Shown in pieces: positions 13,603 to 15,951 of a stretch of 44,404 nucleotides of DNA. Numbering within the stretch: position 1 is the first letter of the stretch; each line of letters starts with the position of its first letter. The position numbers and the translations under genes were made by a program. The DNA is taken from NCBI RefSeq assembly GCF_000422445.1, contig NZ_AULU01000025.1, positions 1 through 44,404 of the forward strand, in the 5' to 3' direction. The notes beneath the pieces are model-generated. The model searched no databases. It worked only from the letters and a program-made list of their open reading frames with translations, and was not told the origin of the DNA. The stretch is from Paenibacillus assamensis DSM 18201 (GTDB lineage Bacteria; Bacillota; Bacilli; Paenibacillales; Paenibacillaceae).

Positions 13603-13791
13603 CGTTTCTTATATAAAGGATATCTCTAAACTTCAGTGATGACTAGTTACTTCAGTCATAGGTAAGTCATATGACGAACTACACACTCCAGTCACTTACC
13701 TTGTATATGCATCTCCGCTATGATGAGGTCAACAGTACGACGACCGAATTGCAAATGAATGCTTCGAGTAGTGCTTAAAGGAGGTAAGTGT

Positions 13792-14529
13792 ATGAATGCT
13801 TTGAATGCGACACAATCCGCAGAAATACGTGCGAAATCTGCAGCGGCAGGACCAAAACCGATTAAACCTTGGACCATTTTACGCTATGACACGGATCGAT
13901 TTCCATTTGCCAAAATCATATCTCGTGATGTGTATAAGGTGAAACAGTTAGATTTACTTCACGAATTTGTGAAATCGAAGCGCAAGTTACTAGGTATGAG
14001 TGATATATTAACTCAAAAAGATAATTTGAGTGCCATAGCATTATTTCAAAAAAGCACGAAGGATTCTCCTTTTTATTTGTTCTATCATCACTTCATGCAA
14101 AAAGTGCTCTCTCCATTAGTGGGAAGTTCATTATCCTATTCAAGTCATCCCAATATGCGTGTTCATTTCCCTGGGACAGATAGTGAGAGCAGCTTCCATC
14201 ATGACATCCTCGTTACCCGTCGAATGGATCAAATGAATTGTTGGATGCCTTTTACAGATGTTGACGGAACAGCAACGCTCTGGTTAGAAAGTGATTATGG
14301 TCGCGGCGATTATGCGCCAGTACCTGTACAGTATGGGGAAGTGCTTATATTTGATGGGGGGTATTTGGGGCATGGTTCTGTTCCTAACGAAAGTAATGGA
14401 ACAAGAATTAGTCTCGATATGCGCTTTTCCTATAAAGGGGCTAATACGCGCATAGAGGGAGTCACCCTCCTGAACCAAATCGTACAGCGGAACGAAAGTG
14501 GATACGGTTTTAAACGAATGTACCGTTAA
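13792..14529 (+). CDS. StrG/PhyH-like Fe(II)/2-oxoglutarate-dependent dioxygenase
   Basis: A 245-residue protein with the jelly-roll oxygenase metal site: His136 and Asp138 (in SFHHDILV) and His194 (GHGSVPNE) as the two-His-one-carboxylate triad, with Arg205 (TRISLDMRF) as likely 2-oxoglutarate ligand. The local sequence resembles the StrG-like proteins found in antibiotic gene clusters, which are thought to hydroxylate small molecules. The ATG at 13792 is preferred over one at 13759 because AAAGGAGGT lies 8 bases before it. It is a single-gene unit closed by a strong terminator, with no biosynthetic partners around it. The GGTAAGT (13660s) and ACTTACC (13690s) inverted elements upstream might be regulatory. 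Confidence 0.72.
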   Translation: MNALNATQSAEIRAKSAAAGPKPIKPWTILRYDTDRFPFAKIISRDVYKVKQLDLLHEFVKSKRKLLGMSDILTQKDNLSAIALFQKSTKDSPFYLFYHHFMQKVLSPLVGSSLSYSSHPNMRVHFPGTDSESSFHHDILVTRRMDQMNCWMPFTDVDGTATLWLESDYGRGDYAPVPVQYGEVLIFDGGYLGHGSVPNESNGTRISLDMRFSYKGANTRIEGVTLLNQIVQRNESGYGFKRMYR

Positions 14530-14578: not shown

Positions 14579-14616
14579 AGTTGGCGTCGCCACGCACTGA
14601 CGACGCCAACTTTATG
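14579..14616. terminator. Bidirectional terminator between convergent genes
   Basis: Perfect 11-bp arms AGTTGGCGTCG (14579-14589) and CGACGCCAACT (14601-14611) lie between the dioxygenase stop and the stop of the minus-strand fusion gene. A short T-rich stretch follows on the plus strand, and AAATAAAGG precedes, giving Ts on the minus strand. Confidence 0.7.
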
Positions 14617-14625
14617 CGTGATAGG

Positions 14626-15582
14626 TTAGTATTTAGCTGCCCAAACTTCGATTTCGACTTTAAGCGAATCAACTGCTAATGCCGGAATATAACAAAACGT
14701 CATAGCTGGTGTGGCACCTCCGTGAAACTTCTCCCAAGCTTCATCGAAATAGTCCCAATCCATTTCTTCCGTTGCCCAAATATTCACCTTAAAAATATTG
14801 TCTGCAGTCACTGATTGGCTTTGCAAAACACGTAATATGTTCTGGAGCGTATTATGCAATTGCTGTTTTAGCTCCGGAGGGATATGTCCCTGTAAATCGC
14901 TTCCTACTTGACCAGACAATACGAGCAAATCAGCGCCTCGTGGGACAACAGTGAGGTGAGTGTACGGACCCATAGGAGGGACCAATGTAGTTGGATTGAT
15001 ACGCTGAACCCGTTTCTTCTCAGCCAATGTGTTATCGGAAGCTTCTGCTCTAACGATAGCCAACGTCTGATGATCTTCCCAACGGCCATTTATTTTTACA
15101 TTTTTCATAGCAATACCTTCTTTATGGAAGCCAGACTTCAGCAGCACTTTCATGGAACCTTGATTATGTAGCATAACACCAGCCTCAATCCGATGGAGGC
15201 CCAATTGCCTAAAAGCGTAGTCAACAACTAATGTAACTGCCTCCGTCATATATCCTTTCCCGTTGTGAGCTTGATCAAGGAAATAGCCAATCCAGCAGCT
15301 TTGCAGGTTATAACGTACAACCTCTGTTAAAGAGACTTCACCAATGACCTGCCCCGATTGCTGCAAGCAGATTACAAATAAATAACCTCGATCTGCTTCT
15401 TTTAACTCCATCTCTTCCTTAATTCGATCGATCTGGCCTGCAAGGGTATAGAAAGATTCCTCTCTTGAACCAGTGAAAGCTTGAAAGAACTCGCGATTGT
15501 TTCTTTCTAGTGCGAGTAGGTTCTCGGCATCGGATTCCTCAACCAATTTTACATAAATGTTTTCTCCGTTTAATCGTGTCAT
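14626..15582 (-). CDS. GNAT acetyltransferase fused to a RidA (YjgF/UK114) domain
   Basis: 318 residues in one uninterrupted frame. Residues 1 to about 178 are a RimJ/RimL-type GNAT domain with the acetyl-CoA loop AHNGKGYMTEA. Residues about 190-318 are a complete RidA-like domain (NPTTLVPPMGPYTHL, then LVLSGQVGSD). RidA proteins hydrolyse reactive enamine/imine intermediates using a conserved Arg; here that site reads TPAMTF with Met294, so the classical deaminase chemistry is probably lost. The GNAT half is closest to enzymes acetylating amines such as protein N-termini or antibiotics. The ATG follows AAAAAGGAG. A perfect terminator hairpin stands only 28 bases before the start, implying expression by read-through from the upstream leader. 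No internal start separates the two domains. Confidence 0.85.
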   Translation of the reverse strand: MTRLNGENIYVKLVEESDAENLLALERNNREFFQAFTGSREESFYTLAGQIDRIKEEMELKEADRGYLFVICLQQSGQVIGEVSLTEVVRYNLQSCWIGYFLDQAHNGKGYMTEAVTLVVDYAFRQLGLHRIEAGVMLHNQGSMKVLLKSGFHKEGIAMKNVKINGRWEDHQTLAIVRAEASDNTLAEKKRVQRINPTTLVPPMGPYTHLTVVPRGADLLVLSGQVGSDLQGHIPPELKQQLHNTLQNILRVLQSQSVTADNIFKVNIWATEEMDWDYFDEAWEKFHGGATPAMTFCYIPALAVDSLKVEIEVWAAKY

Positions 15583-15610
15583 CGTTCATTTCTCCTTTTT
15601 GTTAAATAAT

Positions 15611-15686
15611 AAAAAACACCACAGGAACCCTGTGGTGTACGAATCAAAATCAAAATAGATAACCACAAGGAAGCGACCTGTGGTGT
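15611..15686 (-). promoter_or_regulatory. Attenuator-like tandem hairpins before the GNAT-RidA gene
   Basis: Read on the minus strand, four complementary segments occur in order: ACACCACAGG (15686-15677), CCTTGTGGT (15670-15662), ACACCACAGG again (15638-15629) and CCTGTGGTGT (15625-15616), followed by six Ts. Segments 3:4 form a perfect 10-bp terminator with a 3-nt loop. Segment 2 can pair either with 1 or with 3, and segment 4 with 3 or 1. This is the 1:2/3:4 versus 2:3 logic of transcription attenuators. No T-box consensus (GGGTGGNACCGCG) is present. The inducing signal is unknown. Confidence 0.65.
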
Positions 15687-15703
15687 TTAAGATCCACTGT
15701 ATC

Positions 15704-15841
15704 CTAAGTCATGATCACCTTAGATAGAAGTCGCCGAATATCGAATTTGGACAGACGTATCCCGTGGTTAAATAGATCAAAGAAAACAGCAGTAGAATAT
15801 CCTGTGCCTTTAGACAAAGATTGCAATGATCGTTTCTTCAT
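15704..15841 (-). CDS. 45-residue small ORF (leader peptide or microprotein) before the GNAT-RidA attenuator
   Basis: The ORF begins at ATG 15841 with an AAAGGAG ribosome site (plus-strand 15851-15857) about 9-10 bases upstream. It encodes a basic 45-residue peptide starting MKKRSLQSLSKGTGYSTAVF and ending in TAG at 15704. A good promoter (TTGCAT, 17 bp, TATAAT) sits about 80 bases upstream. The stop lies 17 bases before the first of two tandem hairpins. It could be an independent microprotein terminated by the hairpin, or a leader whose translation controls read-through into the fusion gene. It is longer than classical leader peptides and has no run of one amino acid. I do not recognise the sequence. 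Confidence 0.55.
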   Translation of the reverse strand: MKKRSLQSLSKGTGYSTAVFFDLFNHGIRLSKFDIRRLLSKVIMT

Positions 15842-15922
15842 GAGGATACGCTCCTTTCGTGTAGTGGTAGATAGGATAAATACATTTGCTATTGCTCATC
15901 CGTTCATTCATACATGTCTAAA

Positions 15923-15951
15923 ATTATATGTGAAATGGCGAGCGAATGCAA
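15923..15951 (-). promoter_or_regulatory. Sigma-A promoter for the small ORF / GNAT-RidA leader
   Basis: On the minus strand: -35 TTGCAT (15951-15946), 17-bp spacer, -10 TATAAT (15928-15923). Spacing is ideal. It is the only strong promoter seen between the DUF421 gene and the GNAT-RidA gene. Confidence 0.65.

Follow-up and report, generated by a model that had tools for sequence, protein, structure and literature searches.

A probable ribosome-controlled transcription attenuator before a GNAT-RidA fusion gene of Paenibacillus assamensis

How is a gene expressed when only 28 nt separate its start codon from a terminator-like hairpin? The gene for a GNAT-RidA fusion protein in the window, the 44,404-nt stretch of Paenibacillus assamensis DSM 18201 DNA analyzed here, raises this question. 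The original prediction saw the answer in conditional read-through governed by a small upstream open reading frame (uORF) and mutually exclusive hairpins. Our analysis favors this reading: the leader at 15841-15583 is probably a transcription attenuator under ribosome control, and uORF translation would decide between terminator and antiterminator.

The leader, its gene and their relatives

The features of the locus are, in window coordinates:

15923..15951, minus strand: candidate promoter TTGCAT-17-TATAAT, with the -10 at 15928-15923
15857-15851, minus strand: uORF ribosome site AAAGGAG, read from the sequence
15844..15857, minus strand: ribosome site with GUAUCC after it, a potential pairing partner of GGAUAU (15802-15797) within the uORF
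15841-15704, minus strand: uORF of 45 aa, MKKRSLQSLSKGTGYSTAVFFDLFNHGIRLSKFDIRRLLSKVIMT, with a predicted stall region at about codons 18-22
15749..15763, minus strand: 15-nt core element GGGATACGTCTGTCC, conserved across leader classes
15734-15729, minus strand: P0a, GCGACU, which forms the 5' side of helix P0; 35 distinct leaders have it 100% paired
15700..15726, minus strand: hairpin A, enclosed by P0 in the predicted fold of the P0a-P0b stretch
15694..15697, minus strand: GUGG, which can pair with CCAC at 15683-15680 of segment 1
15686-15677, minus strand: segment 1, ACACCACAGG, its 3' end overlapping P0b
15678-15673, minus strand: P0b, GGUCGC, 3' strand of helix P0, overlapping segment 1
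15670-15662, minus strand: segment 2, CCTTGTGGT; pairing 1:2 conserved, 2:3 98.6% paired
15638-15629, minus strand: segment 3, ACACCACAGG, partner in 2:3 and 3:4
15625-15616, minus strand: segment 4, CCTGTGGTGT; with the U run (15610..15625), the intrinsic-terminator-like end of 3:4
15616-15611, minus strand: six Ts, followed by a 28-nt gap before the ATG (15582)
14626..15582, minus strand: controlled gene, GNAT (RimJ-like)-RidA-like fusion of 318 aa

The 45-codon ORF with its ribosome site, the four segments, the six Ts and the 28-nt gap all lie where the original prediction had placed them, and segments 3:4, described there as a terminator, form a 10-pair terminator-like stem with a U run. 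The reported lack of a T-box signature agrees with our Rfam search, which gave no family at gathering threshold anywhere in the window. The promoter, called ideal, fared less well: its -10 is perfect, but TTGCAT shares only TTG with the -35 consensus (3/6), and TTGCAT-17-TATAAT is absent from the list returned by a promoter scan at its threshold. Averaged over 39 leaders, the top promoter score ahead of the uORF was 8.95 of 12 versus 8.00 for shuffled sequence, a weak excess. Since 5 kb contained four terminator-like sites versus 3.6 expected, the hairpins alone are within chance. The leader fold was better than 199/200 shuffles (z -3.2; 1/200 as good), and it is this fold and, above all, its conservation that is beyond chance.

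The fusion protein matched Pfam PF13302 and PF01042, both over their cut-offs, and its best solved relative by sequence was 3igr, RimJ. Canonical RidA carries a catalytic Arg in a PAR motif. The fusion resembles the RidA (YjgF/YER057c/UK114) family in its PF01042 domain but differs in having P[AS]MT where canonical RidA has PAR. This motif was present in 23/23 uninterrupted fusions and in 87/87 loci with a stand-alone RidA-like gene (RidA-only loci), and the active-site Arg of PAR was not found in any of these. Because the RidA domains at 14626-15582 and at L228-L317 carry P[AS]MT and not PAR, those of the fusion and of the RidA-only loci may not be imine deaminases. Downstream, a strong GC-rich terminator-like stem (14579-14611) lies between the fusion gene and a convergent ORF (13759-14529) that is 2OG-Fe(II)-oxygenase-like.

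Near-full-length relatives of the fusion were found in 10/19 genomes of the genus, its own included, together with one broken copy. For a scan of named genomes we used the best 80 of 236 matching stretches; among these, the closest named relative was P. arenosi (92% identity), and the hosts, by record title spore-formers of several genera, included Paenibacillus, Brevibacillus, Hazenella, Laceyella, Thermoflavimicrobium, Paenactinomyces, Robertmurraya, Heyndrickxia, Metabacillus, Psychrobacillus, Priestia and Bacillus. The uORF was present in 39 distinct leaders, of which 25 belong to near-full-length fusion matches, 13 to genes for GNAT alone and one to the broken copy (L178-L180 were dropped as duplicates). 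All 25 near-full-length matches read were preceded by the uORF and both hairpins; the frame is interrupted in two near-full-length matches, L110 and L141. At 47 others of the 80 loci a motif search gave no such uORF; leaders with GTG starts (e.g. L212) are undercounted because the search used fixed motifs and then ATG starts only. On plasmids, no tblastn match to the uORF was obtained. The original prediction had proposed a comparison of relatives and had named loss of the pairing segments there as evidence against it. The segments are conserved: 39 leaders keep the ORF and the exclusive hairpins, and their pairing shows compensatory changes, which supports the attenuator reading.

Some copies have decayed. 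The broken GNAT-RidA copy (L034/L024, genome G008) has an in-frame stop and a still recognizable leader, and in genome G006 a decayed piece of leader and gene (L323) lies ~2.7 kb from the intact copy. In genome G434 a leader (L204) breaks off close to the end of its contig, following a second CCACAGGTCGTT repeat that may mark an insertion boundary.

The uORF peptide and the 15-nt core

Among 116 unique sequences of codons 1-21, taken from GNAT-type and RidA-type leaders, the median dN/dS was 0.14 (1834 of 3000 sampled pairs), and third positions held 12150 of the 16416 differences in codons 13-21 (74%). The amino acids of GYSTAVFF are nearly invariant and its codons vary. To judge from these patterns, the uORF is under coding (purifying) selection. 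With an E limit of 0.01, a profile built from 22 uORFs (alignment A4) recovered the peptide head MKKxSLxxLSxGxGYSTAVFF in 124 of 392 genomes from the order; its weakest matches are doubtful. Most uORFs of the family are 21 aa long and end right after GYSTAVFF. We read 90 of the 98 remaining places, leaving out the 8 weakest, and a stand-alone RidA-like gene followed directly in 87/90; in L278, L304 and L306 it was not directly downstream or not assignable. One peptide head therefore precedes RidA, GNAT and GNAT-RidA genes. The family, in most cases a uORF of 21 aa ahead of a lone RidA gene, appears to be new.

Codons 14-16 of the uORF can pair with its ribosome site and the GUAUCC behind it. 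Each leader's own stem was stronger than swapped ones both in the GNAT-type leaders (class 1; 1 of 20000 permutations as low) and in the RidA-only leaders (class 2; 0 of 20000). A ribosome stalled near codon 21 could hold this ribosome site open. Near-identical rows were removed before these tests and before those on the core stem described below; alignment A5 was made without L247, L278, L302 and L227.

The RidA, GNAT and most ABC-F (RAxF-45) leaders read share a core with the consensus GGG(A/U)NNNGUNUG(U/C)CC, placed 77-81 nt downstream of the uORF start. In 38/39 GNAT-type leaders GGGANNNGUNUGUC(C/U) follows the start codon at a distance of 77-80 nt. Indels have put the core out of frame in L013, L015, L016, L100, L096-L098, L107, L127 and L034, and a tree of 37 leaders, which omits L034 and L109, requires four or more frame changes, three of them forced by well-supported branches. 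In 96/103 RidA-only leaders the core is located 77-80 nt from the start, 11-14 nt past the stop codon. Its survival through frame changes and its place beyond the stop codon in RidA leaders argue that it acts there as RNA. The outer stem of the core hairpin covaries in these leaders (own -5.06 versus swapped -2.54 kcal/mol, 0 of 20000 permutations), and the core is, on this comparative evidence, constrained as RNA in RidA-only leaders. The corresponding permutation test in GNAT leaders gave no support for the outer stem (7012 and 4272 of 20000).

As a DNA pattern, the core had 38 matches in the 19 genus genomes versus 2 for the reversed pattern. In the genome of the window it matched exactly twice, in the GNAT-RidA leader and in an ABC-F leader. 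Summed over a per-genome table, 148 genomes gave 151 matches versus 13 reversed, so the core can be used for finding further genes of the same kind. From the matches listed we hand-picked 80 family loci with the core: 42 led to ABC-F genes, with the start codon exactly 81 nt upstream in 34 of them, 21 lay inside long ORFs, and 17 were other, including one (L359) that also leads to an ABC-F gene. Two of these 17 are SDR (short-chain dehydrogenase) genes with a terminator-like hairpin (L355, L383), and the core stands before a third such gene at L319; the uORF there would be a different one. The pattern also occurs upstream of repeated uncharacterized genes with identical flanks (L382, L426, L381), possibly a mobile element and possibly chance.

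The ABC-F leaders bring in an annotated small-protein family, RAxF-45 (NF041642). We considered the uORF of the window as a member and rejected it (15.4 bits, E 0.011, versus a curated cut-off of 27 bits). ORFs over this cut-off occurred in 16/19 genus genomes and 53/295 family genomes. The genome of the window has one, before an ABC-F gene (L037, contig 5) whose best NCBIfam match was "ribosomal protection-like ABC-F" (348 bits versus a cut-off of 380; the protein is cut). A GC-rich hairpin with a T-rich tail lies between that ORF, which carries the 15-nt core, and its gene. Assigned by reading the sequence, an ABC-F gene lay downstream in 35/36 RAxF-45 loci read; L091 is interrupted, and L064 is a sub-threshold RAxF-45 match elsewhere. 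The core was present in 34/35 ABC-F leaders, always in frame and with Gly always GGG, and the start codon lay exactly 81 nt upstream in 31/34. RAxF-45 thus resembles the uORF of the window in having the same core as DNA at a nearly equal distance from the start codon, preceded by an [R/T]-A-x-F-like stretch, and differs in that its ORFs precede ABC-F and not GNAT-RidA genes. The 15-nt core common to RidA, GNAT and ABC-F leaders appears to be new.

Could the RNA itself be the sensor, with the core and its stem binding a ligand or protein and steering the hairpins, and uORF translation only modulating the outcome? The persistence of the core out of frame and beyond the stop codon and the covarying outer stem in RidA-only leaders would fit. 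We nevertheless consider this unlikely: the peptide, whose codons change synonymously, is the most conserved part of the leader, the spacing between uORF start and core is fixed, the outer stem lacks support in GNAT leaders, and no Rfam match exceeded threshold. When six leader loci were searched at E up to 5, Rfam returned nine weak matches, none at gathering score.

Purifying selection on the peptide would also be expected if the uORF encoded a working small protein and the hairpins were a leaky terminator between two genes, and 43 homologous small proteins stood among the matches listed, several annotated as hypothetical proteins. This explanation is improbable in our view, as the RidA-only peptides end at residue 21 and have lost everything after F21, the stop position is coordinated with P0 pairing, and the class 1 and 2 copies read directly precede a gene of the target type, except in L278, L304 and L306.

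Helix P0 and the predicted switch

How could translation of the uORF reach the terminator? A helix missed in the original prediction, P0 (GCGACU:GGUCGC), can tie uORF translation to segment 1, judging by its conservation. In 35 distinct leaders 210/210 cells were paired, compared with 18-61% in slid controls. Two pairs and 12 cells had changed on both sides, from G-C to A-U in six leaders and from A-U to G-C in six; this count of pairs was not above shuffles (288 of 500). On the tree, the latter, a double change of the fourth pair, falls in two separate places, the P. dendritiformis group and Metabacillus; P0 has also changed in the broken copy L034, which was left out of the tree. When the P0a-P0b stretch was folded alone, P0 closed the best free fold in 36/36 leaders, and CCACA of segment 1 was mostly paired upstream in this fold in 32/36, being incompletely hidden in L034, L118, L124 and L156.

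The other pairings were compared in alignment A2, which holds 36 leaders and omits L109, L111 and L113, in which parts of the structure are missing. Pairings 1:2 and 3:4 were kept in these 36, with 3:4 97.7% paired and two of its pairs changed on both sides (A2, 36/39 leaders); one covariation control for 1:2/3:4 and P0 can be exceeded by relatedness alone. The alternative pairing 2:3 put forward in the original prediction can form in nearly every leader (98.6% paired); its covariation in A2 was not beyond shuffles, since its segments repeat those of 1:2 and 3:4. In an RNA ending after segment 3, P0 with 2:3 was lower in energy than 1:2 in 35/36 leaders, and in full-length RNA 1:2 with 3:4 was lower than P0 with 2:3 in 31/36. 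Without constraints, the finished leader RNA of this locus folded best as 1:4 with 2:3 nested and without P0. As this is neither the terminator nor the P0 fold, the switch would have to rely on folding during transcription.

Three findings speak for an attenuator: dN/dS and the third-position excess point to a translated ORF, the 3:4 stem with its U run forms a predicted intrinsic terminator before the gene in 36/39 leaders, and P0 versus 1:2 and 2:3 is an exclusive alternative linked to the ORF. We propose that, without inducer, the ribosome would read to the stop codon, at most 6 nt before GCGACU or beyond it, and mask GCGACU; 1:2 and then the 3:4 terminator would form. With inducer, the nascent ...GYSTAVFF would stall the ribosome some 40 nt before GCGACU, near codon 21, leaving P0a free to pair with GGUCGC; segment 1 would be hidden, 2:3 would form and transcription would read through. 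The uORF stop codon starts at -6 to +36 nt relative to the P0a start in 38/39 leaders (in L111, P0a is lost), so a terminating ribosome should always mask P0a. An untranslated leader would be expected to read through too, a point that tells against this model. ABC-F genes lie behind related leaders with the same core, which makes a small molecule that targets the ribosome during translation (an inhibitor of translation or a metabolite) a likelier inducer than shortage of an amino acid. The core, just ahead of the edge of the stalled ribosome, might as RNA support stalling or time the refolding.

The sign of the switch would be reversed if P0 and 1:2 coexisted as a pseudoknot, which would promote termination, with a ribosome held over GCGACU giving read-through. 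P0 and a 6-pair 1:2 stem can be written as a sterically possible pseudoknot in which 98.4% of cells pair; however, P0 competes with the full 1:2 for the GG of segment 1 and its closed fold hides most of CCACA in 32/36 leaders, which makes this arrangement very unlikely. The weakest alternative is a trp-type attenuator stalled by starvation for an amino acid such as phenylalanine: two adjacent Phe codons (20, 21) are conserved, but they are the only approach to a run of sensed codons, the GYSTAV before them is equally conserved, in amino acid and not in codon, and the target gene is not biosynthetic, so that the amino-acid-responsive attenuation suggested in the original prediction is disfavored to the point of being scarcely credible.

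Relation to known leaders

Literature searches over open-licence papers found no published account of the GYSTAVFF leader or of the 15-nt core, and nothing on RAxF-45, on arrest peptides linked to RidA or on uORFs of Paenibacillus ABC-F genes; what they gave on RidA with leader peptides and on attenuation of ABC-F genes in Paenibacillus was unrelated, judging by titles and the opening of the abstracts. Beyond the attenuator itself, we entertain a broader and somewhat doubtful proposal: that the core is an undescribed RNA module which acts with the nascent peptide at the front edge of the stalled ribosome (about codon 21-22), that across Bacillales and Paenibacillales a single widespread leader family controls the genes for ABC-F, RidA, GNAT and GNAT-RidA proteins, and that the C-terminal motif of RAxF-45 is this module translated. 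If so, GNAT and RidA-like proteins would respond to one shared compound that acts on the ribosome, the GYSTAVFF head would link them to ribosome stalling, and the agent that stalls the peptide would hint at their substrates. Peptide-controlled stalling would gain a component in the mRNA, an RNA element that is independent of frame and keeps a fixed spacing to the start codon in three classes of leader, and RAxF-45 would become a regulatory leader.

Drug-inducible erm and cat leader peptides are short, act in cis and are sensed in the ribosome tunnel. The peptide described here is likewise short and is predicted to act in the same way, and differs from them in target, length and motif. Closer parallels are the attenuators of the ARE-ABCF genes vmlR of B. 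subtilis and cplR of C. difficile, which are reported to share with this leader type a uORF, a chain of anti-antiterminator, antiterminator and terminator, and read-through expected on ribosome stalling (PMC9226507, PMC10201436). The uORFs of that type are reported as MIN, MR[I/M], MK[L/Q] and MAGN (PMC9226507, PMC10201436), whereas here a conserved peptide of 21 residues precedes a different target gene, with an upstream P0-closed fold and the 15-nt core. In terms of how it would work, the leader is, by analogy, a ribosome-mediated transcription attenuator of the vmlR kind.
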